Assembly: GCF_900103825.1 (NCBI RefSeq) | Contig: NZ_FNIF01000009.1 | Location: forward strand, 1-64,000 | Source: Paenibacillus sp. yr247 | GTDB lineage: Bacteria > Bacillota > Bacilli > Paenibacillales > NBRC-103111 | DNA length: 64,000 nucleotides | Direction of reading: 5' to 3' | Shown: in pieces, positions 25,085 to 41,678 of the stretch | Position numbering within the stretch: position 1 is the stretch's first letter | Layout of the letters: every line of letters starts with the position of its first letter | Made by a program: the position numbers and the translations under genes | The notes under the pieces: model-generated | What the model saw: only the letters and a program-made list of their open reading frames with translations | Databases searched by the model: none | Told to the model about the DNA's origin: nothing

Positions 25085-25181
25085 TTCATTTTTCATTCAC
25101 CTTGATGTATAATCTGATGTGTTCAGATACGTAAGCGGAAGACGCAACGGTATGCCTGTTTAGGCATCGTTGCGTTTTTTA
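25085..25181 (+). promoter_or_regulatory. Promoter and leader terminator of the transfer block
   Basis: TATAAT at 25108-25113 with a weak TTCATT at 25085-25090 (17-bp spacing). The leader carries AAGCGGAAGACGC (25133-25145). From 25142 an intrinsic terminator forms: ACGCAACG pairs with CGTTGCGT, and ATGCC with GGCAT inside, followed by a long T-run (25176-25181 and more). It lies before the first gene of the block, so it is an attenuator-type leader, not a gene end. Confidence 0.75.
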
Positions 25182-25209
25182 TTTTTTAAAGAGAGGTGAA
25201 TCGAGAGGC

Positions 25210-26886
25210 ATGCCTGTAACCAGGGTGATGTTAGAGGACGATGACGACCGTTTGGATGATTTTGATCCTACTCAAACGACTGATCGTTCATCGATACGAT
25301 CTACGAAGCTGTTTTTGGCTGAACTAGAGGATGAGGAAGAACTGGGAGATGATTATCTTCTACCTGAAGATAATGAAAGCACCACGAATTCGCCCGAGAT
25401 TCTGATTTCGAATCAAAAGCGATGGAAAAGAGGGGTGAGCAGTCGACGGGATCGAAAATGGGATTTCGATAGAGTCCAGGATATTGTGCAGAACAATCCG
25501 ACTCGTTTGAGGATTCTCAGCAGCCTCTATGTCCATCGACAATTGGATGTATTCCAAATTGCTCGTATTGCGGCGCCGAAGATGCACATTAAAGCACTAG
25601 GTAATCTGATGAGCGAGATGTATGCCCAAAAGGTCGTATGGCGCGAGAAAGGAGCGGGTCCGGAAAACACAAAAGGCGATAAGAAGAAGTTTTATTACCG
25701 CCTTTCGAAGAGTGGTCTTGAGCTCTTGGTGGAAATTTACCTCAAATGTGACCATTACGCTTATTTCTATCCGGATTTACCGAAGGAGCACTATTTAATC
25801 CAAAACCTGATGATTGGTAAGCAAGATAATCATCACTTTGAAACACAGGAATTCGTCACTCGCTTATTGCAGACGATGAATGCCAACGAGATCTACTTAC
25901 CTCATTGTGAGTGGAAACGGTACCCGCTCCAAGATCCAAGGTTGGAAGGGAAGAAGGCGCCTTATCGTCCCGACTGGTTTTTATTCCGCCCCAATGAGCA
26001 TTACAAGACGCTCGTTGACAACGATCGCACAGGGGATTGCCCGCTGCATGTTCCTGTGGAATCCAGAAAGGAATCGCATAAATCGTTATTAAGTGACCAT
26101 TACAAGGGTTTTGTATCGATTGAGTGCGATTTGAAAACGATGGATCAGCGATTAATCGAAGATAAGTGTCGGAAGTTTCTGTACTCCCTCGATTTTTATC
26201 CTGATAACAATATGGCGTTCTTCTCGGTAAACGGCCGATATGCAAGAGATGCAGTCTTACCCATTAAGAATACGACCATGATGGTCCGACTGAGGAACAC
26301 CAGAAAGGTAATGTTTAAGGTGCTAAAGGATGTCATGCTCAGCGACAAGATTAACGTACTGCATGGTGATGAGCATACATGCCGACTTTCTCTGGAAATG
26401 TTTCTGGAGCGGGATGGTGACTTTCACTCAGTAGCCCCGAGAGGTAAGGAATTCGAATCTTATGTTCATGCGTTATCCAGTACGATGGATACTCAAGTGG
26501 CCTACGTAACGGACGAAGTGAAGAAAATGCAGCTCGCAAGACCACTGCCCGTCATGCCGGATGAAGCTGTTCGGATCACTGGGGATTGGGGGAAAAAATC
26601 ACAGACGTATATGGTCTTCTTTGTACGCCTGGGGTGGTTGAACCCCATTGCAAAAGCAAGCGCGATGTTGGAGTGGATTGAAGAGGGGGAAGAGAATGCG
26701 AAGGTCATCCTCGTATATCCGAATCAAGCAGAAATGGATGAAGAAGTACACTTTGATAACCTGCCGTTCTATTATGTGAACTGGGAGGATGTCGTCCGAA
26801 CCGGTACCTGGGGTCACTTCAAAAAGCCTGAACCCTGTCGCAAGGATGATCGAAGATTGTGGGTATGGAAGGATGTGAACCCATGA
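25210..26886 (+). CDS. Replication-relaxation-family protein
   Basis: 558 aa, ATG 25210 after AGAGAGGTG. The N-terminal ~75 residues are acidic and disordered. A winged helix follows at ~95-180 (RLRILSSLYVHRQLDVFQIA, then KKKFYYRLSKSGLELL). A domain with the pattern of a PD-(D/E)XK fold comes next (APYRPDWFLF, then KGFVSIECDLKTM). This is the make-up of 'replication-relaxation' proteins of Gram-positive plasmids, which sit in transfer regions and are thought to act in relaxosome assembly or plasmid DNA handling. It overlaps the coupling-protein gene by 4 bp, which supports a job in presenting DNA to the VirD4-type ATPase. Confidence 0.7.
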   Translation: MPVTRVMLEDDDDRLDDFDPTQTTDRSSIRSTKLFLAELEDEEELGDDYLLPEDNESTTNSPEILISNQKRWKRGVSSRRDRKWDFDRVQDIVQNNPTRLRILSSLYVHRQLDVFQIARIAAPKMHIKALGNLMSEMYAQKVVWREKGAGPENTKGDKKKFYYRLSKSGLELLVEIYLKCDHYAYFYPDLPKEHYLIQNLMIGKQDNHHFETQEFVTRLLQTMNANEIYLPHCEWKRYPLQDPRLEGKKAPYRPDWFLFRPNEHYKTLVDNDRTGDCPLHVPVESRKESHKSLLSDHYKGFVSIECDLKTMDQRLIEDKCRKFLYSLDFYPDNNMAFFSVNGRYARDAVLPIKNTTMMVRLRNTRKVMFKVLKDVMLSDKINVLHGDEHTCRLSLEMFLERDGDFHSVAPRGKEFESYVHALSSTMDTQVAYVTDEVKKMQLARPLPVMPDEAVRITGDWGKKSQTYMVFFVRLGWLNPIAKASAMLEWIEEGEENAKVILVYPNQAEMDEEVHFDNLPFYYVNWEDVVRTGTWGHFKKPEPCRKDDRRLWVWKDVNP

Positions 26887-29804
26887 TGAATCGGTTATGG
26901 CAGAAGATCGGACAATGGAACTGGAACAAGCACACTCCAATACTCCTTATATGGGTGATGTATGGACTTTTGTACTTGATCTTGCTTTCAGCGCTTGGAA
27001 TGTTGTTTGCAATGGTAATAGGGAACTTCGATATGCCAAGGGCTCGATTGATGGCGCTGATCCCCGTACTTGGTCATTTTATGATCTTTTACAGTCCGCC
27101 AAGCGGGAACCATTATGTGTTGGTTATCGGAACGTTAGTGCTGTCTGCTGCTTCTTGGTTATTCAGCACAAGGCTAAAGGTTTGCACATCGAGTTTGCGG
27201 CGACGAATGTTCTTCTTTGCTTTCTCAGTACTTACTTTTGCGATTGTATTCAATGTGTTTGCGGCCAACTTTTTGAAGCCGATCACCTATGATAAAGTCA
27301 TGCTGCTCGACGGATGGGTATCCGAAAGCAATCGTAAATTTGTAGACAAAGGAGCCCTTAAGCTATTAGGAACCGTGCTCATGCTGCTGCCGATGATCGT
27401 TACCTATAAGTTCGTAACGTGGCTATATGGGGTATACCGAGAGGATACGGTCGTACAGGAATGGTTTGCGGATTACAAGTTTCAGTGGAGCCGTTTAGCC
27501 CGCTTCGGTGAAGATAATGCCATGAAGTTTCCTGACATTACGCTCGCTATCGATGCGATACTCCGTGTTCCTGTTGTTCTCCTTGGTGTATCCAGGCAGT
27601 TAGGAACACTGCTCATTGGTCCTCCAGGGAGCGGTAAGACGAGTTTGAAAATTATCAAAGGCGTTCGTCAGGACTTTGCTCATATGCAGCGGATGATTAA
27701 TGCGTTCCCGGGCTTAGTGAAAAAGCATGGTCTTGGAACAAAAGAGTTTTTACTGGAGATGGGGAAGTACCTCATCGGGACGGTCGTCATCGAGCCTGCA
27801 AAGGATTTGTGTGATAAGAGCTACGCTCTTGCCAAAGAGCACGGGATTCCGGATCGACTCGTTGTCTATCTCGATCCTTCTAATGCGCGTACCCCTGGTT
27901 TCAACTGTATGATTGGCCCCATTGAACAGGTCGCGGAAACCATTACAGCGGTACTCGATGGGATGAGTGAAACCAGTAACGAATTCTTCCGGCAGGCCTG
28001 CAGAACCGTATTGAAACAATATATTTACCTGCTTAAATTTCTGAAGAAAAATGAATGTACGCTGCTAGACCTCGACCAGATGTATCAGGATCCGCGCTTT
28101 ACGAAGGACATGGTGGAGGAAGTGAGGAAAAAAGTTCCTGGCCGTGATGAGATAAGTCGTATGCCCAATGATATGCAGATCTATTGGATGTTGGTTCGGC
28201 GTACGCTGCGCTGGTTCGATAACGATGGTCTGGAGGAGGAGCGGGACCGCGATGGTATGCTGCTCAAATACGAAACTGGCGAACACCAAGGGCGCATCAA
28301 AATAAAGGATAAGCAGTCCGAATTCACACGTCAGACTCGTAACCTACTTGCAGATCTCATTACGAATCCGTACCTCGCCCGGATATTGACCGGACGTAAC
28401 GAAGTTGATCTCGATAAACTGATGGGCAAGGGCGGCGTGCTGCTCTGTAATACAGATAACGGTCTGCTTGGCAATGTATCGGATGCCTTCGGTAAGCTTG
28501 TGTTGATGAGCGTTCAGAATGCGGTATTTCGCCGTAAAGGTGACGAAGATACCCGTCCATTGGTCTCGGTATATGTGGATGAATTCTATGATTATATGAA
28601 CTCTCCTTTCCTGAAATTAGCCGGTCAAGGACGGAAGTACAAAGTGGCTTTTCTTGTTGCTTGCCAGTCGCTGTCGCAGTTTCATGTCAAGTTCAACGAA
28701 GCTTTCGTGAACGCCATGCTCGGAACGATTCGAAATTACATCGTGTATGGTGGGGTAGGGGAATATGATGCTAAAAAGCTCGTTCCGATTTTCGGGACGC
28801 ACGTCGTCGAGGAAGTAGCGGATAAGGAGTCCTTCTCACCGGAAAGCAATAACAATCCGTCTATGAATTACTCTCGCTCCGTAGTACGCGAAGAGAGAGA
28901 GTTGGTTACGGCAAACGAGATCATGTTTAACAAGTTTAAATTTAGCTACATGCGCCTCATTGTAGAGGGGAGTACGTCGAAGGCAGTCAAGGGTGAGGGC
29001 GACTTTGTCGATTTTGGAGATGCCGAAAAGTGGAAAAAGGCGCTTCAACCCGAAGCGGTAAAATACTTCATGCAATACTGGCAAGACGATAACGAAACCA
29101 TATACACCTTTGATATGAACTGGATCGATACATGGGGCGATCATATCGACCCGAACACCAAAGACGTCGCGGCGAGTCTTGAGAAAGGCTACGATAAAGT
29201 ACGCGAGGAAAAAACATTTGAGGAAATCGCACGCACAGATGACACAACTGCCGATCGTTTTGTGGATCTTGAGTTGTCGGGTGAAACGGCAGCATCCCGT
29301 CAAGAGGAAGACAAAGAGGTCACTGTGACCCCGATGCCACGAGCATCCCAGTTTGTTTATCACAAGGGAGGAGCGGGTGAGGTGCCTCAGCGGGGGATAG
29401 ATGAACAGGTCAAGACTTCGAGGCCCGAGCCCAAAAAAGATGATCCTGGAGCGGGTGCGGCGAAAGAGCGATCAAAAGAGGACGGTACTAAGGAATCCGC
29501 AGTAAAAACTCCTCCCGCCAATGCGGTAAGTTTTTCGAGCGTATTTAGCAGACCCGCTTCCCCGTCACCTATGGCGAATGCAACATCGGCTTCCGAGTCA
29601 GAACCGGTACAGGAGAAAGAGACGGAGGAATTGCCTGTTGCCGAAGAGGAAGCAAGTTCTTCTTCTCTACCAGTAGAGAACCGTCAGGATCCATCCGTGA
29701 AGAAAAAGAAGATCGAGTATCTTAAGGATGCTGGAGTGGATGTAAACAGTAAAAAATTCCTGCAGCAGCTGTTTAACGTAACCCGAGATGATGGGAAATC
29801 ATGA
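26883..29804 (+). CDS. VirD4/TraG-type coupling protein (T4CP)
   Basis: 973 aa from ATG 26883, which overlaps the previous stop (ATGA) and has GGAAGGATG upstream. Three to four transmembrane helices lie in the first ~200 residues. Walker A GPPGSGKTS is at ~246-254 and Walker B VSVYVDEF near 562-569, followed by a QSLSQF-type motif and TraG-like end. This is the P-loop ATPase that brings DNA or protein substrates to a secretion channel. The last ~200 residues are a long Pro/Glu/Ser-rich linker ending in a basic helix (KKKKIEYLKDAGVDV), which could bind a substrate or partner. Location: membrane, cytosolic ATPase. It lies between the replication-relaxation gene and the Tad-like genes. Confidence 0.88.
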   Translation: MMNRLWQKIGQWNWNKHTPILLIWVMYGLLYLILLSALGMLFAMVIGNFDMPRARLMALIPVLGHFMIFYSPPSGNHYVLVIGTLVLSAASWLFSTRLKVCTSSLRRRMFFFAFSVLTFAIVFNVFAANFLKPITYDKVMLLDGWVSESNRKFVDKGALKLLGTVLMLLPMIVTYKFVTWLYGVYREDTVVQEWFADYKFQWSRLARFGEDNAMKFPDITLAIDAILRVPVVLLGVSRQLGTLLIGPPGSGKTSLKIIKGVRQDFAHMQRMINAFPGLVKKHGLGTKEFLLEMGKYLIGTVVIEPAKDLCDKSYALAKEHGIPDRLVVYLDPSNARTPGFNCMIGPIEQVAETITAVLDGMSETSNEFFRQACRTVLKQYIYLLKFLKKNECTLLDLDQMYQDPRFTKDMVEEVRKKVPGRDEISRMPNDMQIYWMLVRRTLRWFDNDGLEEERDRDGMLLKYETGEHQGRIKIKDKQSEFTRQTRNLLADLITNPYLARILTGRNEVDLDKLMGKGGVLLCNTDNGLLGNVSDAFGKLVLMSVQNAVFRRKGDEDTRPLVSVYVDEFYDYMNSPFLKLAGQGRKYKVAFLVACQSLSQFHVKFNEAFVNAMLGTIRNYIVYGGVGEYDAKKLVPIFGTHVVEEVADKESFSPESNNNPSMNYSRSVVREERELVTANEIMFNKFKFSYMRLIVEGSTSKAVKGEGDFVDFGDAEKWKKALQPEAVKYFMQYWQDDNETIYTFDMNWIDTWGDHIDPNTKDVAASLEKGYDKVREEKTFEEIARTDDTTADRFVDLELSGETAASRQEEDKEVTVTPMPRASQFVYHKGGAGEVPQRGIDEQVKTSRPEPKKDDPGAGAAKERSKEDGTKESAVKTPPANAVSFSSVFSRPASPSPMANATSASESEPVQEKETEELPVAEEEASSSSLPVENRQDPSVKKKKIEYLKDAGVDVNSKKFLQQLFNVTRDDGKS

Positions 29805-29871
29805 GATATAGTCGTTATATGTAGAAATAGGTCTTGTCAGTGAAGCGAGTTTTCGGTAAGATGGTAATTAA

Positions 29872-29941
29872 TAGAATATTGTCTAATGAGCGATGAAGCG
29901 TAAGACGCACGCAACCTATTGGTTGAGTGCGTCTTTTTTTT
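29872..29941 (+). promoter_or_regulatory. Promoter -10 and leader terminator before the S1 gene
   Basis: TAGAAT at 29872-29877 is a possible -10 without a clear -35. AAGCGTAAGACGC lies at 29896-29908. AAGACGCAC (29902-29910) and CAACC (29912-29916) pair with GTGCGTCTT (29927-29935) and GGTTG (29921-29925), followed by seven T residues. It could end the T4CP transcript, but the sequence shared with the leader at 25133 argues for a leader attenuator as well. Confidence 0.7.
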
Positions 29942-29984
29942 GTTGTATTTATCGCCCAGTGAACCCATTCGAGGAGGTAGTTAC

Positions 29985-30920
29985 ATGAATAACGCAAATG
30001 CAGCCGTTTTGGAGTTATTAAGGGATTCCATGAAAAGAAGGTTCGTCCAGTATGGTGTCCTTGAGAACATCCGTGAAGTAAGACTGGCGAATGATACCAG
30101 CGAGGAGTTGCTACTGATCAACTTTAACGGTGTCACGGTGTACTGCAGAAAGGCAGACTTTGTGAAGCGTGAATTAAAATCGTACAGCGGCTTTCTTCAG
30201 ACCAGTGTGCCGTTCATTGTCAAGAATATTACACCTGACGGCCACGTCATCGTCAACCGTATCGAGGCATTACCGATCGTGAGTCGTGCCTTCATTCGCA
30301 ACGTATCGGAAGGTGACATCGTAACCGGAACCGTAACGGGGGTAACGGCAAATAACGTCGTTTTTGTCGACATTCAAGGTGTTCCTTGCCTGATCCCGCC
30401 GCAAGAGTGGGATAGTTCAAGACCTATAAACCTCCGCGAATTTGTCAAAGTGGGTACGGAGCTCGATCTTCAGGTGTTGACGATCCAAGAACTCCCTAAA
30501 AAGGAGTCCGAAGGCGAAAGTGAAGTAGAAGGCGTGACGGATAACAAGTCTTGGGAATTTGGATACCGGGTTCGCCTGTCGCGTAAAGCCGTCATGTCCG
30601 AAGAGATATCCCGCATTTGGGATCGGATTGAGGACCATTATACAGTGGGGGATTCGACAGTAGCGAAAATCGTTGGTTTTGCCCAGGGGATGAACAGCTA
30701 CTTCCTTGAACTGCCAAAAGGTCTTGTGATTGTAGGTAATCTGCAGAACAATCTGCGACGTCAATACGGCGGCGGTCTCCCTCCAGGTCTCAAAGTTCAT
30801 GTCACAATCGAGAGAATGAATAAGGAACAAAGACGCGGGAAAGCAAAGATTTTCAAACTGGATCCTACGCTCCAATCTGTTCTGCGTAGACCAAATGCGT
30901 TCAACCCTAACTTCTCCTGA
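29985..30920 (+). CDS. S1-domain RNA-binding protein
   Basis: 311 aa from ATG 29985, which follows GAGGAGGTAG; the frame is open further upstream but without signals. Around residues 115-150 an S1 fold is evident: GDIVTGTVTGVTANNVVFVD followed by VPCLIPPQEW. A second, more diverged OB-like unit lies at ~205-305 (DSTVAKIVGFAQGMNSYFLE, LPPGLKVHVTIERM). S1 domains bind RNA or single-stranded DNA. Its place inside a transfer/secretion gene block is unusual; it might bind mRNA leaders of the block, or single-stranded plasmid DNA. Its 3' end overlaps the next gene by 26 bp. Confidence 0.75.
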   Translation: MNNANAAVLELLRDSMKRRFVQYGVLENIREVRLANDTSEELLLINFNGVTVYCRKADFVKRELKSYSGFLQTSVPFIVKNITPDGHVIVNRIEALPIVSRAFIRNVSEGDIVTGTVTGVTANNVVFVDIQGVPCLIPPQEWDSSRPINLREFVKVGTELDLQVLTIQELPKKESEGESEVEGVTDNKSWEFGYRVRLSRKAVMSEEISRIWDRIEDHYTVGDSTVAKIVGFAQGMNSYFLELPKGLVIVGNLQNNLRRQYGGGLPPGLKVHVTIERMNKEQRRGKAKIFKLDPTLQSVLRRPNAFNPNFS

Positions 30921-31842
30921 TGTTCAACCAGTGCGGATATGGAAAGCATTAGATGGCAGTGTTCCACTTTTTGATGATCCGACATTGTCCATCAGGATGC
31001 TTCCCTGGCACAATCGGCCAGATACCCATCTGGAAGTCACGGTTTTCCGCGTCGAAACCGGACAAATAACACAAATGGATGTAGAAGTTGCAGTAACACT
31101 TGCCAAGATGAAGGTGCTGACGGAAAGACAGCTGCGATTACTATATACGGAGCGATATGGTAAAGCTCATAAGCTTGCATCTCGTTTACGGTTTCTTCAG
31201 CAAATCGGCTGGTTTGAAGGCTGGACCATCGAAAGTGAGTATAATAAGCGGGAATATGTGTGGAGCATTGGGATTGGTGCTAAGAACTATTTAGGGTTTG
31301 TCATGGGCATGAGGGACCTGCCCAACCCTATCTCCATTGCACAGAATATTGCTCATTACCTATCGGTGTGTGCAGTCAACGAGCTACGAATCCAGATGCT
31401 CCAGCGGCAGGTTATAAGCGAAGAAAATTTCGTCTTGTATCCTCACATCGCACCCAATGCGGAGAATCCACTCGCAATGGTGGGGATGAATACTCCTGTT
31501 GGTATGATCGTTCTGTATGTCGAACGCCTTCAGCAGACAAAGAAGCCGCTTCGGTACATGAAGATGAAATTGAAGCGATATAAGGACTTGATTGACAATG
31601 GTCGTCTGCCAAGTCCATTTCCTACCGAGCACCCGCCTATTATGGTATGGAGCTGTGGGACGGAAGAGGCTGCCAGAGATATTGTAGGTTCACTCAATGA
31701 GTTGCCTAGTGAAATGATTCATTTGTTCCTGATCGACGAACATATGACGGATTTTCGTTATGCGTTTAGGATCGCCGAAAAGGGCGGCCAAGTAGGTGAT
31801 GTGCTGCTCCAGCCATTTGTATTTGACTTTTTAGACAATTAA
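30895..31842 (+). CDS. Winged-helix protein, replication-relaxation-like
   Basis: 315 aa. A winged-helix region lies at ~60-110 (VAVTLAKMKVLTERQLRLLY, KAHKLASRLRFLQQIGWFEG), followed by a longer alpha/beta domain with strands such as MIVLYVERLQQT and HPPIMVWSCG. The overall layout (wHTH, then a nuclease-fold-like domain) resembles a short relative of the 25210 product. It overlaps the S1 gene by 26 bp. A DNA-binding role in transfer or in control of the operon is inferred. Weak family recognition. Confidence 0.5.
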   Translation: MRSTLTSPDVQPVRIWKALDGSVPLFDDPTLSIRMLPWHNRPDTHLEVTVFRVETGQITQMDVEVAVTLAKMKVLTERQLRLLYTERYGKAHKLASRLRFLQQIGWFEGWTIESEYNKREYVWSIGIGAKNYLGFVMGMRDLPNPISIAQNIAHYLSVCAVNELRIQMLQRQVISEENFVLYPHIAPNAENPLAMVGMNTPVGMIVLYVERLQQTKKPLRYMKMKLKRYKDLIDNGRLPSPFPTEHPPIMVWSCGTEEAARDIVGSLNELPSEMIHLFLIDEHMTDFRYAFRIAEKGGQVGDVLLQPFVFDFLDN

Positions 31843-31853
31843 AGAATACGGGT

Positions 31854-31900
31854 AAATCATATGGACATGGGTGACTATTCATCAAGGTCCATATGATTTT
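31854..31900 (+). terminator. Intercistronic hairpin, 13-bp stem
   Basis: AAATCATATGGAC (31854-31866) is an exact complement of GTCCATATGATTT (31887-31899), with a short T-run at the end. It lies between the wHTH gene and the CpaB-like gene and may reduce read-through. Confidence 0.65.
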
Positions 31901-31955
31901 CTATCGTAAAAGGCGCCGCAATCCGGGAAACCCCGGGGATGGAGGTATAAAGTTC

Positions 31956-32777
31956 ATGAAGGTTCGAGTTACAGTACTATTCACGGTTGGTCTATCGATA
32001 TTTTTCATAGGCTTGTTCTTGTTTCTGTTGCTGTATATCAAAGGGGAAGAGCTCCTGCCAAAGGAGGTTACATACATACCTCGCGGCAAAGCGATCGAAA
32101 AGTACACAGAGATCACGAACAAAGCGATGTTCGACCAACTGTTTCAACCCCAGCAAGTTCTACGGGCTGCGATTGAGCCTAGCATGATTACCCAGGATCG
32201 AATACAAGAGGTTATTGGGAAGACATTGGCTCAGCCAGTGTACCCGGACGAGCATTTAACGACCCATCATATAGGTGATAATCAACTGGTACCCAAGGCG
32301 GGAGAAATTGGCTATCCCATTCCAAGCGAATGGTTCGCAGTACTTGACTGGACAGGGAGGGTCGGTGACGTAGGAGAGATTTGGCTAACGCCGGATGATA
32401 AACTTAAGGCCAAATATCAACAAGCATCAGGGGAAATTAATGGCGCTGTCATTGGCGCACAGGCAAACAACCAAACCAATTTTAATGCACATGTGACGGT
32501 AAAAGCTGATGGAGGAAACGTACCGGATTTACCCGAGCGGCCGCTGAAGAAGCCGCTGCTTACGAGTGTGAAGCTGCGGTACGTCTTTGATGCACAGGCG
32601 AAAGCTGTCAAAAATGCAAAAGACGTGGCTGACCGGTCCGAAGGCACGAATAAGCCGGCAAATGCAAAAATCTTCCTTACTGCTGATCAGTTCGCACAGA
32701 TCAAAAGTGCCGTGGAAGACGGGTATAAACTCATATTCGCCATTCATGATGATGGGGAAAGGGGGCTATCGAATTGA
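31956..32777 (+). CDS. CpaB/RcpC-like SAF-domain protein
   Basis: 273 aa from ATG 31956 with GGAGGT upstream; the longer frame from 31893 overlaps a hairpin and is not supported. One transmembrane helix (about 5-30) precedes a periplasm/outside-facing region. Residues ~60-130 have the SAF pattern: a strand, QQVLRAAIEPSMITQDRIQ, then PVYPDEHLTTHHI. CpaB/RcpC proteins are pilus-assembly factors of Tad systems, and SAF domains resemble beta-clip carbohydrate binders. The next gene starts 4 bp before the stop (TTGA overlap). Confidence 0.75.
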   Translation: MKVRVTVLFTVGLSIFFIGLFLFLLLYIKGEELLPKEVTYIPRGKAIEKYTEITNKAMFDQLFQPQQVLRAAIEPSMITQDRIQEVIGKTLAQPVYPDEHLTTHHIGDNQLVPKAGEIGYPIPSEWFAVLDWTGRVGDVGEIWLTPDDKLKAKYQQASGEINGAVIGAQANNQTNFNAHVTVKADGGNVPDLPERPLKKPLLTSVKLRYVFDAQAKAVKNAKDVADRSEGTNKPANAKIFLTADQFAQIKSAVEDGYKLIFAIHDDGERGLSN

Positions 32778-33862
32778 AAGTAATCATTATTGGTCGGACA
32801 AGCCGACTCCTTCCGCTTGTACAAGGCATTCATGGTGTTACGGATGTACTGTATTCCATTGATGGTGAAAGTAAGGAACCGGGTGCTTATATCCTGGATC
32901 ATGTAAATCCTGAACTGATGGAAAAAATATCTGAACATGCGGCAGCTAACCGTGTGATCTATGTACACAACGTCCGAAGCGGGATTAGTGATGACTATGA
33001 CCGTGCAAAGGAAGCTTGCAAATTAAAAGATATTCCTTTTATCGTGGACCGTGGCGATTCAAATGTGATCGATGAAATTGATCGAATCTTGTTTCCTGAC
33101 CGACATACGGAGCGTGTCCTGCCTTCCATCGCCTTAATTTCGGCTCATCGCGGTGCGGGCGCACATATGATCGCGAAAAGTATCGGAGAAAATTTACTTA
33201 GCAAAACCAATGCAAGCATCGGTATCATCAATATGGATCCGTATGATGTGTCCTCGAATACGGAAGGCTTTTTCCAGCTGTACAAGGAGTACGAAGCCGG
33301 TGGGCTGACGACGAGACGCATCCGGGAAATTGCAGAATCGAAAAATGGTCTTCACATCATTAGTGGTAATCCAAAGCTTGATTTTGCAAGAAAGTATGGC
33401 ATGGATCGTATCGAACAAATTCTCTCGCTGATTCAGCATAGCTTCGACTTGACGATCGTGTTGATTAGCCCCTACTGGGATAACACCCTAACACTTGTTC
33501 CGATCAAGATGATTGGGCGCAAGTATTTGGTTGCAACTAGCAACCAGCAATCTATGAACGAGTTTTATCAATACCTGCCGCAAATTCGTTATCTGTACGG
33601 TATCGACTTACGTGGGACCTCGTTCATTTATAATTTTGAGGGCAACGGCATTGAAACGAAACTTGCGATTAGTACCCAGCTTCAGTCGAGCTCCATTTTG
33701 TCACTTCCGTATGTTCCTAGTACCCATCCAGCAGCAAGTAAACACATTCAACAGGGAATCTCCGCATTTAGCGATATGCTGATGGGTGATTATGACATGC
33801 CGAACCTTCAGGAGAAGGTTCGGAAACGATCATTGTTTGGATTAATACCAGTAAGGGGTTGA
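32774..33862 (+). CDS. CpaE/TadZ-like ATPase homologue with degenerate P-loop
   Basis: 362 aa from TTG 32774. The N-terminal ~110 residues form a receiver-like or atypical alpha/beta domain, as in CpaE/TadZ. The second domain is MinD/ParA-like: IALISAHRGAGAHMIAKSI, IGIINMDPYDVSSNTEGFF, then TIVLISPYWDN. The Walker A position has HRGAGAHM in place of the usual KGGVGKTT, so the key lysines are missing and ATP hydrolysis is doubtful. TadZ proteins localise the Tad machine at the membrane or pole. The position between CpaB-like and TadA-like genes is the standard one. Confidence 0.75.
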   Translation: MKVIIIGRTSRLLPLVQGIHGVTDVLYSIDGESKEPGAYILDHVNPELMEKISEHAAANRVIYVHNVRSGISDDYDRAKEACKLKDIPFIVDRGDSNVIDEIDRILFPDRHTERVLPSIALISAHRGAGAHMIAKSIGENLLSKTNASIGIINMDPYDVSSNTEGFFQLYKEYEAGGLTTRRIREIAESKNGLHIISGNPKLDFARKYGMDRIEQILSLIQHSFDLTIVLISPYWDNTLTLVPIKMIGRKYLVATSNQQSMNEFYQYLPQIRYLYGIDLRGTSFIYNFEGNGIETKLAISTQLQSSSILSLPYVPSTHPAASKHIQQGISAFSDMLMGDYDMPNLQEKVRKRSLFGLIPVRG

Positions 33863-33866
33863 GCCT

Positions 33867-35351
33867 ATGAATCCGGATACCTTGTTCAAACTGGAGGAGC
33901 AGACGGAGATCCAGTTCCATGAAATTGTTGACTATATGAAAAATGGAACGGATGCGAAAAACCCACAGGCGCAAGGGTATGCGAATCAACAGTTCCGCTT
34001 CGCGGTGGGTATTGTAAATGACTTCTTTGACAAGCGCCTCACTAACGCGAAAACAACCGACGAGAAAAAGAAGTACCAAAATCAACAGCATCATGCGACC
34101 CGAGGGCGACCGGAAGAAGTCAATGAAATGAAGCGAATTATTCAGCAAATCATTGAACAGTCTCAGCTTCACGATATGCCGTTCCCTTCCATCTACTTGA
34201 ATTTGGTCGATGCTCTATTTCATGAGACTTGGGGGTTCGGGGTCGTGAGTGTCTGGCTCGAGCAGCACCGAGAAGTCGGAAAATGCCGGTTAAATGGGAC
34301 GGAAGTTTGGTATAAGAAGCCCGGTGAGAGGCACCGGATTCACGAGCAGTATCGGGACATTAAGGAAGTGTACCGACTGATTGACAATCTGGTGCTGAAT
34401 GACGAAGGGGTAGTACTCTCGCGGGATACTCCCTATGCGGAACTTCAGCTGTATGATGGAACCCGGGTTGTCATTACGATACCGCCTATATGCCGTGTGC
34501 CTACTATTGTCTTCCGCCGCACAACCGTTGCGCTCTATACCTTAAATGAACAGGCAAAACTGAAGACCATCGATTCTGAGGCCATTCCCATTTATCAAAT
34601 GATGGCCCGGTGCGGGTGCAAAATTGTACTATCGGGCGAACCAGGGGTAGGAAAAACGACGTTTTTGCTATCCACATTCGCAGAGACGCATTCGGATCAC
34701 ATTACGGTAGCTGCGGAAAATGCCTTTGAAATGATGCTCAAAGCAAGGTTTCTTGACCGTGATATTACTGAATTTGTCGGCGACGACAAGACGATGGTTC
34801 CGGTTATTTTTCCTCGGACACTACGGCAAGACCCCAAGATTTATATGATAGGCGAAATTCGAGAGGTCGAAGCTCCGATGTACAAAGAGGCGGCACGCAA
34901 TTCCACGGGATTCGTCGGTACGACGATGCATGAATATGACTCTACGAACGTTCCCGGGACACTCGCTCGTAAAGAGATTCGCCATGTGAATGGACTGAAT
35001 TACCGGATTGCCCTTACGGATTATGCTTCGGTTATCGATTTCGTACTCATCATGGAGCTGGATGAGGATCAGACGACGATCCGGAATGCAGAAATATCGG
35101 AAATCCGCTTCGATCCTTTAAACTTGTCTGTCACCAGTAAACGAATCATGCTGTTTGATGAAGATACAAAGATATGGCTGTATGACGCTGAAATTGACGA
35201 CCAGCTCCTCCGGCGAATGAAGAAAAAAGATCGCCACGCTTACGCCGCTGGCATGAAGACCTTGGAACGCTTAGCCGAGGATCGGCCTATTCCTAAGGAC
35301 AGGCTATCCAAATCGCTCTCTTGGGGCGAATCATCGGGCAGGGGGGATTGA
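33867..35351 (+). CDS. tadA: TadA/CpaF/VirB11-type secretion ATPase
   Basis: 494 aa. The C-terminal ATPase domain has Walker A GEPGVGKTT at ~257-265, an Asp-box-like segment (DHITVAAENAFEM), the Walker B-like YMIGEIREVEA and a His-containing GFVGTTMHEYDST, all typical of the VirB11/PulE/TadA superfamily. The N-terminal half (about 1-200) is long, as in CpaF. It is a hexameric cytosolic motor for pilus assembly or secretion. It is followed at once by TadB- and TadC-like genes, which places it in a Tad (type IVc) machine, not a classical VirB operon. Confidence 0.85.
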   Translation: MNPDTLFKLEEQTEIQFHEIVDYMKNGTDAKNPQAQGYANQQFRFAVGIVNDFFDKRLTNAKTTDEKKKYQNQQHHATRGRPEEVNEMKRIIQQIIEQSQLHDMPFPSIYLNLVDALFHETWGFGVVSVWLEQHREVGKCRLNGTEVWYKKPGERHRIHEQYRDIKEVYRLIDNLVLNDEGVVLSRDTPYAELQLYDGTRVVITIPPICRVPTIVFRRTTVALYTLNEQAKLKTIDSEAIPIYQMMARCGCKIVLSGEPGVGKTTFLLSTFAETHSDHITVAAENAFEMMLKARFLDRDITEFVGDDKTMVPVIFPRTLRQDPKIYMIGEIREVEAPMYKEAARNSTGFVGTTMHEYDSTNVPGTLARKEIRHVNGLNYRIALTDYASVIDFVLIMELDEDQTTIRNAEISEIRFDPLNLSVTSKRIMLFDEDTKIWLYDAEIDDQLLRRMKKKDRHAYAAGMKTLERLAEDRPIPKDRLSKSLSWGESSGRGD

Positions 35352-35352
35352 C

Positions 35353-36432
35353 TTGCTTGATGGACTGCTTTATACACTGAAAGAAATTCCTAACTTGCTC
35401 CAGACTTACTTGATCTATATTGCAGCTACATTCATTTTGATTGGTTCACTGATAAGCTCGATGATTCTTCTGGCGCAGTTCGCGAAGCTGTATAAAAAGA
35501 TGCACGAAGCCCAGGAGCAATTCAACTCACTGGAGAGTCCCGATCAAGAGATTCGTGATTATTTTGGAAACTTCATTACGAAGACGATAGCCATGCACAT
35601 TCATTCTTTTATAGAACTGTCGCCCTTTGTCACCCGGATTGTTGTCTTGGTTTTTATGCTCGTGAGTATCGGATTGGGGCTTTGGAGCGGGATCAGAGTT
35701 TTCGAAGCAGCGACCTACTGGAAATCAGATTTGCCGCTAAGCCATATGAGCGGATGGATTGCGCTAATCGTTGGCATCGTGGTATCCAGTCTTCCTTTTT
35801 TGCTTCTCCATGCGTTTATCCAGCAACGAAGGGCCAAGCTGAGCCATCAACTGTTACCGTATGTCGAGGATTTTGAAAGGAACTACTTGGTAACCCCGCG
35901 TGTCTATGAGTCGATGAGGGACATGCCGGATAAACTTGGAGAAGGTCATTTGAAGGATATGTCCTTTCGGCTAATTCAGGTCATGCAAAAGAAAGATGTC
36001 GATCGAATTCACTATGAGTTCCGGATGTTTGAACATCAGATCGGCTCTAAATTTTCAGAAATGTTTATTGTGTTGCTGCGTGAAGGCCTTGGTCTTAGCC
36101 ACTTGGAGAAGATTGAGAAGAATCAAGAAGCGAAGCGGGAAACGAAAGACATTCGCGTTGGCCTGCGGGCGCTCATCCAAAAAATGCACGGAATTAAGCG
36201 AGTCGCCCATTCAGATAAGCCTAACAAAAGAGATATTATTCAAGTGGGTTTCCTTACGTTTCCGGTGTTGTACGGTGCCTACTATTATGGGGATAAGCTC
36301 ATGGGGGATCGGGCAAGCCAATTTTTATTCAAAAATACAACGCAAATGGTTTTTTTCATTGGCTCCATCGTCATGGGCATTGTGGCTCTCGCCGTCAACA
36401 TCGTGGTTTCCAGACGAAAGTTTGATGTTTAG
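35353..36432 (+). CDS. tadB: TadB-like inner-membrane platform protein
   Basis: 359 aa from TTG 35353, which has GGGGGG upstream and lies one base after the TadA stop. Hydrophobic helices at ~18-45, 95-120, 135-155 and two near the C-terminus (about 290-355) flank a cytosolic helical domain (HYEFRMFEHQIGSKFSEMF) of the T2SF/GspF type. TadB pairs with TadC to form the platform driven by TadA. Gene order supports the call; sequence similarity is by pattern only. Confidence 0.7.
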   Translation: MLDGLLYTLKEIPNLLQTYLIYIAATFILIGSLISSMILLAQFAKLYKKMHEAQEQFNSLESPDQEIRDYFGNFITKTIAMHIHSFIELSPFVTRIVVLVFMLVSIGLGLWSGIRVFEAATYWKSDLPLSHMSGWIALIVGIVVSSLPFLLLHAFIQQRRAKLSHQLLPYVEDFERNYLVTPRVYESMRDMPDKLGEGHLKDMSFRLIQVMQKKDVDRIHYEFRMFEHQIGSKFSEMFIVLLREGLGLSHLEKIEKNQEAKRETKDIRVGLRALIQKMHGIKRVAHSDKPNKRDIIQVGFLTFPVLYGAYYYGDKLMGDRASQFLFKNTTQMVFFIGSIVMGIVALAVNIVVSRRKFDV

Positions 36433-36463
36433 CAAAAAATCAGGAAAGGGGTGATGCGCCGTT

Positions 36464-37366
36464 ATTGCTTGGTTTGATCTTCATGCATACGATCTGATTT
36501 TGTCCTGCGGGTTTGGATGCACGCTTCTCTCTGTCCTGTTCCTGTTTCTGTCCGTTGGGAAGACGGAGCGCCTTGTTGCCATTCACGAGACTAGAATTTA
36601 TGTACAGCTCGAAGCGAGGCAGAAAATTAGCGCATGGAAAGAGATGTATCAATCCGACTTTGGAAACCACCTATTGGGAACGATGGGATGGAGGAGTAAG
36701 ATCGATGCCACACGGATGATGATGTTTCGGGATGCGGTATCCTTTGCTCTCGCGGCGTTTTTCATCGTCAAACAGTGGATTTCCGGTGGGAATTTGTCTA
36801 CGGAGATTGTTCTCTTACTCCTCATTTATTCCTTGCTGACGCCGGGTACTCATTTCAGTATTCCAAGCACATTTACGTACACGTTCGTCCCAATCTTTCA
36901 AAAGGTACGTCGTTTTCGGGTCAGCAGAGAGTCGGCGATGTTTCTGCAGCTCCTGCGGAACGAAGTAAGCGAGAAAACCGAGCGGCAAGTCATTTCCATC
37001 ATTCAGCAGTATCAAAGTTATTTTAAGGTGCTTCGTAACGATTTGATTGATTTGGAACACGATTTTCCGAAGGGAAAGGACGTGGCGCTAGAACGGTTCA
37101 AATCGAAGCACCCGCAGAACGAAGAGATTAATTACATTTGTTCGATCCTGGACAAGCTTGCTGATGTCGGTTATGCCGAGTGCGCTCAAATGCTGAAGGA
37201 TAACGAAGAAACCTTAAATAAAATGCAAGAAGCTCACTACGAATCTAAAGAGAAAGACTTAAACCAGCTGCTCATGGTGATCAATCTGGGCGGAATTGGG
37301 TTAGCTGCTTTGTGGTTTGTAATCGCTTGTTTCATGTGGTCGTATTCGTTCGACACGAATCCTTAG
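36464..37366 (+). CDS. tadC: TadC-like inner-membrane platform protein
   Basis: About 300 aa. The visible TTG start at 36500 has no ribosome binding site, whereas AAAGGGGTG lies ten bases before an in-frame ATT at 36464 (reading IAWFDLHAYD...), so the gene may start with ATT. Transmembrane segments lie at the N-terminus (CTLLSVLFLFLSVG), near 75-125 and at the C-terminus (GIGLAALWFVIACFMW), around a helical cytosolic part (ESAMFLQLLRNEVSEKTERQ). This is the T2SF-like layout of TadC. Confidence 0.7.
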   Translation: MAWFDLHAYDLILSCGFGCTLLSVLFLFLSVGKTERLVAIHETRIYVQLEARQKISAWKEMYQSDFGNHLLGTMGWRSKIDATRMMMFRDAVSFALAAFFIVKQWISGGNLSTEIVLLLLIYSLLTPGTHFSIPSTFTYTFVPIFQKVRRFRVSRESAMFLQLLRNEVSEKTERQVISIIQQYQSYFKVLRNDLIDLEHDFPKGKDVALERFKSKHPQNEEINYICSILDKLADVGYAECAQMLKDNEETLNKMQEAHYESKEKDLNQLLMVINLGGIGLAALWFVIACFMWSYSFDTNP

Positions 37367-37379
37367 GAGGTGGGTGTGA

Positions 37380-37523
37380 TTGTCTTGGACGTGGAAAAAA
37401 ATCATTGGATTTGGGATTGTCGCTTTTCTTGTAGCCACTCTTCTTCTCGATAGTAGTACCGGTCTTATTACAAAAGAAAAGAATCTTCAAACGACTGCGA
37501 ATAACCGCATCGATAATAAATAA
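37380..37523 (+). CDS. Small membrane (pilin-like) protein, copy 1
   Basis: 47 aa from TTG 37380, nine bases after AGGAGG. It begins MSWTWKKIIGFGIVAF, then a single hydrophobic helix and a short polar tail. It is the first of three tandem paralogues (with 37542 and 39064) directly after the TadC-like gene, where Tad loci encode their major pilin (Flp). Flp pilins are short, with one hydrophobic helix, but carry a G-x-x-x-x-E-Y motif that is not visible here. Structural subunit of the apparatus is the best inference. Confidence 0.6.
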   Translation: MSWTWKKIIGFGIVAFLVATLLLDSSTGLITKEKNLQTTANNRIDNK

Positions 37524-37541
37524 TTTTTGGAGGGATCCCTT

Positions 37542-37700
37542 GTGAGTTGGACATGGAAAAAAGTACTTGGTTTTGGTATCGCGGCATTTTTACTGGCAAC
37601 GTTAGTCCTAAACGGAACAACAGGTTTGTTTTCAAAAGTGAGCACAACGAAAACGCAGTCAGATACTCGCTCAGATTCAGTAAATACCAGCATTAAGTGA
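37542..37700 (+). CDS. Small membrane (pilin-like) protein, copy 2
   Basis: 52 aa from GTG 37542 after GGAGGG. It begins MSWTWKKVLGFGIAAFLLAT and is nearly identical to copy 3 (39064-39222), differing mainly at a few residues in the polar tail. The TnpB element is inserted directly after its stop codon. Confidence 0.65.
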   Translation: MSWTWKKVLGFGIAAFLLATLVLNGTTGLFSKVSTTKTQSDTRSDSVNTSIK

Positions 37701-37745
37701 CGACTCCACACGGCTAAATCCGTGGGCTTCTCGAATCATCGGGAC
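37701..37745 (-). ncRNA. Right end with omega-RNA scaffold (candidate)
   Basis: TnpB elements make a guide RNA from their 3' end into the flank. The right-end hairpin here follows the tnpB stop by ~60 bp. The exact ends of the RNA cannot be set by eye. Confidence 0.5.
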
Positions 37746-37800
37746 TCGTAACCTTGTCCCTCCTCGAAGGCTCCGTCCGAGCCTGTAACTATTTGTATGG

Positions 37801-38889
37801 TTACGAGACTTGCCGCATCGCGCGTGATAGGATATTGATCGCAGCATTCACGTCGCGGTCTATTGTTGCACCGCAATGAGGGCACCGATGCATACGCTCG
37901 GCAAGCGTCTTTTTCACTATTTTGTTGCAGGCAGAGCAGCATTGAGATGTATTGTGCGGATCAACCCGTACAACCTGACGACCGGCACTCTCAGCCTTGT
38001 ACGTCACGAATTGGACAAGTATGCTCCATCCAGCATCCGCTATGCTTTTGGCAAGATGACGGTTTTTCACCATCATTTGCACATTCAATTCTTCGAAAGC
38101 AATGATGTCGTAGTTGTCAACAAGGGTCTTACTGATTTGGTGTGCGTAATCTTTGCGCTGGTTCGCCACACGCTCATGCTGTCTTGCGAGCGCCATGATC
38201 GCTTTCCTTCTGCGCATTGAGCCGTACTGCTTTCTGGATAGCGACTTTTGTTGCCGCTTAAGCTTCGCCTCGTTGTTGCGCAGATGATTCGGCGCTGCAA
38301 ACATTTGTCCGTCTGAGGTTGCCGCCAAATGCTTGATGCCAAGGTCAACACCTACTCGGCGGTTCGTTTCCGGAAGCGGCTCTGCTTCGACTTCGCACGA
38401 CAGACAAGCGTAGTAACGTCCGTTTTTAACCGTAATCGTGCAGGTCTTGATCGTCCCTTGCGGCTGCCGATGCAGTTTGATTCGCACTTGGCCGATCTTG
38501 GACAGTTCGATGTGCTTTCCGTCAAGATCAAATCCGCTCTGCGGATAGGTGAACGAATCGTAGCGGTTTTGCGGCTTAAATCGCGGGAACCCCGCCTTAT
38601 CACCGTTCTTTATGCGGCGAAAGAACGATTGATACGCTTTGTCGAGCCGCCTGGCGACATCTTGCAATACTTGGGAATATACTTCTTTCAATGTCGAGAT
38701 ATGCTGCTTGCGCTCTCGGAACGTGTTCGTTTGTTGTCCGTAGGTCAGCGTCTTTCCTTCCATTTTATAGGCGTGGATGCGTTCGTCCAGCAAACGATTG
38801 TAAAGCAATCGGCAACGTTCAAGAGTGAATTGAATCTTTTCTAGTTGCTCTGTCGTAGGATACAACCGGAATTTGTATGTTCTTACCAA
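37801..38889 (-). CDS. tnpB: TnpB, RNA-guided nuclease of IS605/IS1341 elements
   Basis: 362 aa from TTG 38889, with AGGAGGTG upstream (an ATG at 38894 is out of frame). The N-terminal domain starts RTYKFRLYPTTEQ and contains LLYNRLLDERI. The RuvC-like domain has Asp in GVDLGIKHLA, Glu in IAFEELNVQ and Asp in DRDVNAAINI; a zinc finger (CSACN, CPHCG) lies between the last two. All catalytic residues are present, so it may be active. It would cut empty sites and favour retention of the element. Confidence 0.93.
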   Translation of the reverse strand: MVRTYKFRLYPTTEQLEKIQFTLERCRLLYNRLLDERIHAYKMEGKTLTYGQQTNTFRERKQHISTLKEVYSQVLQDVARRLDKAYQSFFRRIKNGDKAGFPRFKPQNRYDSFTYPQSGFDLDGKHIELSKIGQVRIKLHRQPQGTIKTCTITVKNGRYYACLSCEVEAEPLPETNRRVGVDLGIKHLAATSDGQMFAAPNHLRNNEAKLKRQQKSLSRKQYGSMRRRKAIMALARQHERVANQRKDYAHQISKTLVDNYDIIAFEELNVQMMVKNRHLAKSIADAGWSILVQFVTYKAESAGRQVVRVDPHNTSQCCSACNKIVKKTLAERMHRCPHCGATIDRDVNAAINILSRAMRQVS

Positions 38890-39063
38890 TCATGTTCACC
38901 TCCTGTGCCTATTATATCACAAAAAAGGGAACTAATGTTTGGTTTGTCGAATGCTTGAGGCGTATAAAGCGCCCCGATTTGAAGGTCTTATATCCGCCGC
39001 TGAAGGCGTGGGTTTTACGGCCTGTCTTATAAATCACTAAGATTATAAAGGGAGATGTGAACG

Positions 39064-39222
39064 ATGAGTTGGACATGGAAAAAAGTACTTGGATTTGGTA
39101 TTGCGGCATTTTTACTGGCGACATTGGTATTAAACGGGACTACAGGCCTCCTTTCCAAACTGACGACGACAAAGACCCAATCGGATACTCGCTCCGATGA
39201 GGTTAATACCGGAATTAAGTAG
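39064..39222 (+). CDS. Small membrane (pilin-like) protein, copy 3
   Basis: 52 aa from ATG 39064 after AAGGGAGATG. It starts MSWTWKKVLGFGIAAFLLAT like copy 2, with the same TTGLL and QSDTRSD segments. It is separated from copies 1 and 2 by the TnpB insertion; before that event the three genes were contiguous. Confidence 0.65.
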   Translation: MSWTWKKVLGFGIAAFLLATLVLNGTTGLLSKLTTTKTQSDTRSDEVNTGIK

Positions 39223-39239
39223 TCGCTCGTATACTCCTG

Positions 39240-39269
39240 AGGAGGATAGCCATTGGATGCTATCCTCCT
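39240..39269 (+). other. Perfect hairpin upstream of the 39293 gene
   Basis: AGGAGGATAGC (39240-39250) and its exact complement (39259-39269), 8-nt loop, no T-run. The left arm looks like a ribosome binding site, but the real one (AGGAGAGG) is further on. It could be a transcript processing or stabilising hairpin between differently expressed genes. Confidence 0.55.
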
Positions 39270-39292
39270 CTACATTCAAGGAGAGGATTATT

Positions 39293-39682
39293 GTGAAATT
39301 CACCTTCCAGCAGCTTTTATGGTTACTTATTTCAACTTTGATGACAGTTGCTCTGATTTTGTCTCATGCAGATGCGAAGAACCAGACGTACATAGAGATG
39401 GAAGCAACGGAAGCTATTCTAAAGGCACCGCCTGCTGGCTACATCACACCCGCGATTCAAACTGCGATAAGAGATAACCTCGTGAATACAAGACACTTAG
39501 ATCCTGCCAAGCTAACAATAAGCGGAACGACGAACATTGCTAATCGGAAAGTAAAAGGTTCCGGTGACGAAACGATTTCTCTACAAATATCTTATCCGCG
39601 GGTCATTTATATTTTCTTCGGCTCCGTCATCAATGATTCGTACATAGTTCCTCGAACGATTAATACGGAATATCACCCGTGA
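39293..39682 (+). CDS. Membrane-anchored small protein, TadE/minor-pilin-like candidate
   Basis: 129 aa from GTG 39293, after AAGGAGAGG. One N-terminal hydrophobic helix (LLWLLISTLMTVALILSHAD), then a ~100-residue extracytoplasmic domain with strands (ETISLQISYPRVIYIFFGSV). In Tad loci the genes after the pilin encode TadE/TadF pseudopilins with this layout. The sequence itself shows no signature, so the call rests on position and topology. Confidence 0.55.
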   Translation: MKFTFQQLLWLLISTLMTVALILSHADAKNQTYIEMEATEAILKAPPAGYITPAIQTAIRDNLVNTRHLDPAKLTISGTTNIANRKVKGSGDETISLQISYPRVIYIFFGSVINDSYIVPRTINTEYHP

Positions 39683-39697
39683 AGAAGGAGCAGACAC

Positions 39698-40222
39698 ATG
39701 GCTGTTGTCTTTCGGATTATTATACAATGCTTCATATTTACGCTATTTATCTTTTATGACGTACAGGATCGGGTTCAGTCGATGGGGGAAGCACGCACAT
39801 ATAGTGCGGATATTATCGCCTGTCATGATGCGGCCATACCGAAGCTCGTTGACAAGAGCAAGGGTTACGTCGTGTTTGACGAAGTTGCCGGTCTTGCTAG
39901 CTTTCAGCAGAGTCTCATTCGAAATTTAAACCTGCAACCGAATCTTACTCCTACGAACAATAAGATATTTTATGGGCAGATCAAGATTGTAGGTGTAATG
40001 TTTATTGGGGACGACAAAGTGCCACATGATGCGAGTGGGAAACCTATTTATCCTTATACGTACTCGAACAGCTTGATCTACCGCGGACATTCGATTTCGG
40101 TAGACGAGACACTCTATGGCCCCAGTGTTATCGGTATAATTGAGGCAGGGTATAACACGGAATTAAAGCCGGTTGTGATGAAAACGGCGGTTTATCGATA
40201 TGTTGGGCAATCACTGAATTAG
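39698..40222 (+). CDS. Membrane-anchored protein, second minor-pilin-like candidate
   Basis: 174 aa, ATG 39698 with GAAGGAG upstream. An N-terminal hydrophobic helix (FRIIIQCFIFTLFIFYDV) is followed by a soluble domain of ~145 residues with two Cys only in or near the helix. No signature was found. It is the last gene before the leader terminator at 40343, so it closes the Tad-like block. Confidence 0.55.
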   Translation: MAVVFRIIIQCFIFTLFIFYDVQDRVQSMGEARTYSADIIACHDAAIPKLVDKSKGYVVFDEVAGLASFQQSLIRNLNLQPNLTPTNNKIFYGQIKIVGVMFIGDDKVPHDASGKPIYPYTYSNSLIYRGHSISVDETLYGPSVIGIIEAGYNTELKPVVMKTAVYRYVGQSLN

Positions 40223-41648: not shown

Positions 41649-41678
41649 ATTGATAGTTGCGTTAAGGGGGTGGGGCAT

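Follow-up and report, generated by a model that had tools for sequence, protein, structure and literature searches.

A Tad-type pilus module within the coupling operon of a widespread, probably conjugative Gram-positive plasmid family

Why does a gene for a VirD4-like type IV coupling protein (T4CP) stand at the head of a set of Tad-type pilus genes? The question is raised by the first 64 kb of contig C52 (NZ_FNIF01000009.1; 182,418 bp) in the 6.25 Mb genome of Paenibacillus sp. yr247, a stretch of 64,000 nucleotides hereafter called the window. A co-linear plus-strand block at positions 25210-49013 encodes, in this order, a Replic_Relax protein, the T4CP, an S1-domain protein, a winged helix-turn-helix (wHTH) protein and CpaB-, CpaE-, TadA-, TadB- and TadC-like proteins, followed by pilin-like open reading frames (ORFs) and surface protein genes. 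All the ORFs that a first-pass annotation, made from the DNA letters alone, had named in the block are present in place on the plus strand, with support from Pfam, profile matches or position. That annotation had proposed a VirB-free transfer machine in which the T4CP feeds a Tad platform. The explanation that we favour, and regard as reasonably probable, is a different one: the block provides the relaxosome, coupling and mating-pair parts of a conjugative plasmid family, and a separate Gram-positive type IV secretion system (T4SS) operon provides the DNA channel.

The pairing of the T4CP with Tad genes is not restricted to this strain. The T4CP was searched by tblastn over 72,556 plasmid records, and further loci were taken from an 84,980-species genome collection. 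The nearest named relatives at the locus are Paenibacillus agricola, P. periandrae and Cohnella sp. AR92 (T4CP identity 63-64%); Metabacillus and Cytobacillus plasmids encode proteins of 45-46% identity, and remoter members occur in further Bacillaceae, Planococcaceae, Lactobacillaceae and others. The T4CP-Tad linkage itself was found in Paenibacillaceae, Bacillaceae and Planococcaceae. All eight plasmid regions read (L008-L015) show the order Replic_Relax-T4CP-S1-wHTH and then CpaB, CpaE and TadA on one strand, with extra genes interspersed in some of them, and in seven TadB to TadF come next. Family hidden Markov models (HMMs) run over the window, the plasmid loci and 29 genome-collection loci found the T4CP in 38 loci, in which all assigned genes lie on one strand. 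S1 and wHTH genes are present in 34 of these. In 26 the fetched stretch also includes TadA, downstream of the T4CP and on its strand; the stretches of the remaining 12 stop early, are interrupted or contain no Tad gene. A chance neighbourhood was rejected, the linkage being conserved in these 26 loci. This is consistent with the view of the first-pass annotation that the linkage is unusual, and since an unusual, co-linear pairing has been kept on large plasmids, we argue for a functional link between its two halves. Counted by genome, with 28 of the 30 genomes behind the loci (L042, labelled Flavobacteriaceae, and L047, a 30-residue match, were left out), TadA lies on the T4CP contig at E<1e-60 in 23 and as a weak match (6.6e-36) in one. 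Of 392 genomes of the order, 324 have TadA relatives as such (E<=1e-50). The plasmid genes also have matches under the labels Klebsiella grimontii, Aeromonas sp. Ne-1 and Flavobacteriaceae CP2B, a sign perhaps of contamination, mislabelling or remote transfer.

The first-pass annotation recognised no VirB4-, VirB6- or VirB8-like gene, and this is correct for the block itself. A VirB-type operon that pairs with the T4CP was nevertheless found outside the window, on contig C69 of the same genome, which is the outcome that the annotation itself had named as refuting its model. It encodes a VirB4 of 700 aa (AAA_10 2.7e-11, P-loop_TraG 7.6e-10), a VirB2-like pilin (L051 9973-10377; T4SS_pilin 1.2e-11) directly before PrgI (PrgI profile 1.5e-6), a hydrolase with glucosaminidase (2e-31) and M23 (2.3e-24) domains, and a 722-aa protein that is VirB6-like by position and size and has no Pfam or NCBIfam match. 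Its counterpart by position in Sutcliffiella matches TrbL/VirB6 at 6.7e-5, below the cut-off. The other operon proteins are one of 294 aa and one of 171 aa without a family; a profile scan did not establish a VirB8 among the C69 operon proteins, and no T2SSE/VirB11-type ATPase was found on this contig. Corresponding operons are present on Sutcliffiella, Lysinibacillus sphaericus and Metabacillus plasmids, where the small protein before PrgI is again VirB2-like (PF18895 1.9e-5, TrbC 2.2e-4 and PF18895 2.8e-8, respectively, the first two below the family cut-off). In these other Bacillota operons, VirB2/TrbC-like genes stand directly before PrgI at L053 11659-12045, L055 14200-14589 and L054 24911-25225.

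The two gene sets occur together. A search with a VirB4 alignment detected VirB4 in all 28 genomes tested behind T4CP loci and gave no match on a Bacillus amyloliquefaciens plasmid that carries Tad genes. VirB4 and the T4CP share a contig in 26 of the 28 genomes, 14-227 kb apart and in 20 of the 26 at 20-40 kb. Among 13 plasmid records examined, 12 have a VirB4-like match, several of them weak; the second locus was read in three, and each time it proved to be a VirB-type operon. With the P-loop_TraG profile, 13 of 14 genomes or plasmid records gave a match at E<=0.01, five of them above the cut-off, and the best matches are ORFs of ~670-800 aa distant from the T4CP. Moreover, the T4CP scores at least 233 bits (next 136) in 17 of the 392 genomes of the order, and VirB4 scores at least 643 bits (next 246) in exactly the same 17; these thresholds were placed in the score gaps after the lists had been seen, scoring covered 2-3 candidates in each genome, and the genomes do not represent independent samples. 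Matches that are weaker, and of other kinds, extend at E<=1e-20 to 33 (T4CP) and 79 (VirB4) of the 392 genomes. Co-occurrence therefore shows the T4CP and VirB4 to be partners, and it suggests that they act together.

The first two genes of the block would represent the relaxosome and coupling part. The Replic_Relax protein (25210-26886, 558 aa; this and the following block genes are on the plus strand) matches PF13814 at 2.5e-5, with a score of 24.9 bits that is slightly under the 25.3 cut-off. It appears to consist of a wHTH and a PD-(D/E)xK-like domain in which H208, D255, E305, D307, K319 and R360 are invariant in a 32-sequence alignment, and AlphaFold 2 models reached mean confidence (pLDDT) values of 76 and 81. 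In a fold search with a model of the domain, nuclease-type folds made up 24 of the 50 rows and Rag GTPases tied with them; among the fold rows shown, none was noticed to be an HUH-type relaxase, a result that rules nothing out. When the PDB was searched by sequence, the Replic_Relax profile brought up chiefly wHTH regulators and the nuclease-like part alone two chance hits, and a protein search with the window's sequence returned six proteins, the query included. MOB-suite typing in PLSDB of 13 plasmid records gave no relaxase in 11, MOBQ in one and MOBP in one. The Replic_Relax protein is best described as a candidate relaxase or putative nickase. The T4CP (26883-29804; TraG-D_C 1.3e-9), whose residues read as Walker A and B are invariant in nine sequences, overlaps the Replic_Relax stop codon (26884-26886) by 4 bp, as had been annotated, provided that its start is the ATG at 26883. 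In the whole genome the T4CP profile matches on C52 only. The S1-domain protein (29985-30920; PF00575 9.6e-6) has a longest ORF from 29919 and a likely start at ATG 29985. The wHTH protein (30895-31842) matches the Replic_Relax alignment at 94% probability and is a second paralogue of that kind; in the alignment it lacks the conserved ExD...K residues.

Tad (type IVc, Flp) systems are defined by the gene order CpaB-CpaE-TadA-TadB-TadC-TadE/F. The block has the same order: a CpaB/RcpC-like SAF-domain protein (31893-32777; PF08666 1.7e-4), a CpaE/TadZ-like protein (32774-33862; assigned by position, with homologues in L010-L013 annotated as ParA family), a TadA-like secretion ATPase (33867-35351; T2SSE PF00437 3.8e-10) and the membrane platform proteins TadB (35353-36432) and TadC (36500-37366). 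The best NCBIfam match of the ATPase is the TadA family TIGR03819 (3.4e-17), with VirB11 (2.3e-11) and TrbB (1.5e-10) behind, the TadA and VirB11 matches all being far below those models' cut-offs; G257, K263, T265, E330 and H355 are invariant in 10 sequences. A tree of the ATPase was not used, as seven of 16 inner branches were open and the ORFs L003_1, L004_1 and L005_1 had been wrongly picked. TadB is assigned by its place in the operon and by T2SSF matches in relatives (at E<=1 in eight of the 19 members of the family, the best at 7.9e-5). TadC is identified, apart from its place, only by a profile-profile match to TadB (96%), with no T2SSF match in any of 15 family members and no Pfam support. 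In the window, no supporting Pfam match was obtained for the wHTH, CpaE-, TadB- and TadC-like proteins, and the Replic_Relax, CpaB, CpaE, TadB, TadC, TadE and TadF proteins had no NCBIfam match at E<=0.01. In five loci CpaE appears before CpaB because a second, upstream CpaE-like ORF scored higher. Many Bacillaceae loci encode, between wHTH and CpaB, a second CpaE-like protein of ~500 aa (for example L010 21183-22724 and L013 20269-21795); it was not seen in the window, and profile drift is possible.

TadC is followed by three tiny pilin-like ORFs, of 47 aa (37380-37523; no leader, no GxxxxE), 52 aa (37542-37700; start GTG 37542) and 52 aa (39064-39222; a near copy of the second), and then by single-anchor proteins at the TadE position (39293-39682, 129 aa, start GTG 39293) and the TadF position (39698-40222, 174 aa), both assigned by position and family conservation; an Alicyclobacillus member of the TadE-like family is annotated as DUF4320. 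The pilin run had been annotated as three ORFs, all of which are present, and an IS605-type TnpB gene on the minus strand (37801-38889; PF01385 3.8e-26, PF07282 2.7e-25) between the second and third had been overlooked. It is an insertion and not part of the system; the TadC-TadE intervals of 12 other loci inspected are too short for a TnpB. By eye, neither a leader ahead of the membrane segment nor a GxxxxE site is visible in the tiny hydrophobic proteins encoded between TadC and TadE in 13 loci, hence no Flp prepilin motif, and a prepilin peptidase (PF01478) is absent from all 13 plasmid records. The host genome has three PF01478 matches, on C44 and C49, and a host enzyme could still serve. 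Because its pilins lack GxxxxE and the plasmid records lack the peptidase, the plasmid module can be seen as a reduced Tad variant, and it looks like a recruited member of this type.

The block was first taken to end with the TadF-like gene, and up to that point the description stands; it continues to 49013 with a gene for an S-layer-homology (SLH) protein (40458-41648; PF00395 1.4e-19) and one for a 2,447-aa surface protein with Ig/CARDB/PKD-like repeats (41670-49013; PF25788 2e-14), a putative adhesin. Partial homologues of the giant protein follow the block in two Paenibacillus contigs and one Cohnella contig. In these three Paenibacillaceae relatives TadA is 60-62% identical and the giant protein can be aligned only in parts, at 24-45%; by this comparison, the surface proteins change faster than the Tad motor. 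The anchors also vary, SLH domains in the window versus LPXTG and sortase in Terribacillus. Of the eight plasmid loci read, six have surface proteins with SLH, LPXTG/sortase, PKD or Ig features in the block or beside it: in L008-L012 they follow the Tad genes, and the sixth is L015. Large genes downstream in L013 and L014 are annotated as hypothetical. In Priestia koreensis (L015) the SLH and Ig-like genes precede CpaB, and the fetched stretch ends in TadB.

Starting from the observed gene content, linkage and co-occurrence, we infer a series of biochemical steps. The Replic_Relax protein would bind, nick or remodel the plasmid, and the T4CP, translated with it, would pass the DNA to the VirB4/VirB6-like/PrgI channel encoded by the second operon, mostly 20-40 kb away, whose glucosaminidase/M23 enzyme would open the wall. 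The TadA/B/C motor, with CpaB and CpaE, would build a thin Tad-like filament from the tiny, apparently unprocessed pilins, and this filament, in combination with the SLH-anchored protein and the giant Ig-like surface protein, would join donor and recipient. An operon shared with the T4CP, presumably a single transcript, would switch on adhesion and DNA delivery together. A more specific version is possible but doubtful, namely that Gram-positive conjugation here employs a mating pilus. A reduced Tad machine would assemble the filament from pilins of 44-65 residues that undergo no prepilin processing, control of the machine would be shared with the T4CP and with a relaxase of the non-HUH, PD-(D/E)xK type, and DNA delivery by the T4SS, which also has a VirB2-like pilin of its own, would require the pilus or include it as a component.

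Several observations weigh against our preferred explanation. The part of the Tad genes in transfer is deduced from genomic evidence. Four of the 28 genomes (two Robertmurraya, Priestia koreensis DSM 16467 and one metagenome-assembled genome) have no TadA match at E<=1e-25 on the T4CP contig and one has only the weak match, and in the 392-genome set TadA lies on the T4CP contig in at least eight of 17. The draft assembly of this strain has the T4CP (C52) and VirB4 (C69) on separate contigs; one replicon is assumed because relatives carry both on one contig. Pilins without the Flp motif on plasmids without a prepilin peptidase make filament assembly uncertain, and matings with pBsph were at first reported as negative (PMC4363355). 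In addition, the module can stand alone. A Tad operon of the same type lies on contig C21 without a T4CP (L056 5624-12308), with CpaE-, TadA- and TadB-like genes by HMM, CpaB-, TadC-, TadE- and TadF-like genes by position and size and two 48/49-aa pilins by the same criteria; its neighbours look chromosomal by eye, and PF01478 has no match on C21.

It is worth asking whether the Tad genes form a plasmid-borne adhesion or biofilm trait that merely lies beside the T4CP, which we consider rather unlikely. The C21 operon would fit such a trait, as would the B. amyloliquefaciens plasmid (L016), whose whole record has a Tad module and none of this VirB4, T4CP and Replic_Relax, and, conversely, two Robertmurraya genomes that have VirB4 and this T4CP without this TadA on the contig. 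The latter combination is also found in a Lactobacillus plasmid. An Alicyclobacillus plasmid (L017) also has a Tad module without an adjacent T4CP or a Replic_Relax gene, with a weak VirB4-like match. However, neutral neighbours would be expected to shuffle, whereas the order T4CP-S1-wHTH-Tad is kept across three families even though TadA identity to the window drops to ~18-24% in plasmid relatives, and the S1 and wHTH genes that accompany most T4CP loci occur in neither Tad-only stretch (L016, L017).

A closer merger of the two systems, in which TadA/B/C moves DNA in the manner of PAPI-1 or TadA serves as the VirB11-type ATPase of the separate T4SS, appears improbable. The VirB11 and TrbB matches of TadA, the missing ATPase on C69 and a published PAPI-1 model of this kind (PMC12857230) would agree with it; the ATPase nevertheless matches the TadA family best, TadB, TadC, CpaB and CpaE accompany it as in the stand-alone C21 operon, and T4SS/T4CP sets without this TadA exist. 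The machine of the first-pass annotation, a T4CP-fed Tad platform that transfers DNA alone and without VirB4, would account for the missing VirB genes in the block, but it is contradicted by the VirB-type operon in the same genome and by the co-occurrence described above (T4CP and VirB4 sharing a contig in 26 of 28 genomes, and the matching sets of 17), and we regard it as refuted. Export of protein effectors instead of DNA is very unlikely: T4CPs can recruit proteins, yet here the T4CP has a Replic_Relax partner with nuclease-like residues and a plasmid location; no search aimed at effectors was made. Coupling and mating-pair genes served by a separate T4SS thus remain our preferred explanation.

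TubZ (20930-22219, minus strand; PF21493 1.6e-19), a plasmid replication/segregation gene, lies upstream of the block and divergent from it, and TubZ HMM matches occur in 30 loci, the window counted. Near it, a Y-family DNA polymerase gene (16691-17968) belongs to a group of three plus-strand ORFs (16323-18345). Upstream of TubZ in L010, L011, L013 and L014, an integrase gene and ThiF ubiquitin-like gene sets recur, as annotated, the latter joined by genes of E2 or MPN type in L010 and L011 and in part in L013. Downstream of the block, a GH5 cellulase and a GH30 enzyme with F5/8 domains are encoded at 51020-55506; the G+C content at 52-56 kb is ~53%, above the surroundings, and this stretch was perhaps acquired later. 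Finally, a TnpB that is IS605-type by sequence likeness lies slightly upstream of the T4SS operon on C69 (L051 7704-8786).

Type IV pili with a part in conjugation have published precedents in R64 and PAPI-1 (PMC12857230), and the pilus of the IncI2 plasmid TP114 is reported to stabilise mating pairs (PMC9045228). The IncI plasmids R64 and TP114 likewise have a T4SS cluster and a type IV pilus cluster on one plasmid, the pilus aiding mating-pair contact (PMC9045228, PMC12857230). They are, however, Gram-negative systems with PilS/PilV pilins, and they have a shufflon. The differing features here are a monoderm host, a Tad-type motor, tiny and apparently unprocessed pilins and a T4CP that heads the pilus block. 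The PAPI-1 island also combines VirB4, a T4CP and a type IV pilus (PMC12857230), and the Paenibacillus system has in addition a recognisable VirB2-like/PrgI/hydrolase operon. Canonical Tad (Flp) pili share the gene order of the block and differ in the pilin motif and the prepilin peptidase.

Closer to Paenibacillus, a VirD4, a VirB4, a VirB6 and one pilus assembly ATPase homologue of pBsph have been listed as possibly conjugal (PMC4363355), and both pBsph and its variant p1593 are called conjugative, with p1593-dependent mobilisation of IME8 reported (PMC13239906). The L. sphaericus replicon NZ_CP014857, taken as pBsph-like from its host and genes alone, shares with the window a Replic_Relax protein, a T4CP, a SAF protein, a T2SSE-type ATPase (1.0e-8) and an SLH protein, and likewise has a separate operon for PrgI, VirB4, a T4SS protein and a hydrolase, so that diverged homologues of both clusters are present. 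It differs in that its T4CP is only 22% identical and is separated by a replication gene from the Tad-like genes, the two being divergently oriented. By description only, the block may also be likened to the tip locus of pXO16 from Bacillus thuringiensis israelensis, a large plasmid from the Bacillaceae whose transfer genes are out of the ordinary, with two ATPases, a hydrolase and no identified relaxase (PMC9673590); the word Tad is absent from the main text of that review. Gram-positive systems are said to do without VirB2 pilins and to depend on adhesins, and VirB2-like pilins are reported for Patescibacteria (PMC12102498).

We found no published description of the T4CP-Tad operon or of its spread in searches of the open-licence PMC literature. 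Tad-like genes on a Bacillus plasmid may already have been reported by Grynberg et al. in 2007. What remains as the finding is a conserved Tad-type module within the coupling operon of a widespread, probably conjugative Gram-positive plasmid family. A standard tool typed 82 of the 86 plasmid records matched by one T4CP query as 'non-mobilizable'. If our explanation is true, large plasmids of Bacillales may, as a broad class, be both conjugative and undercounted, and conjugation in Gram-positive bacteria would include a type IV pilus module together with a VirB2-like pilin.

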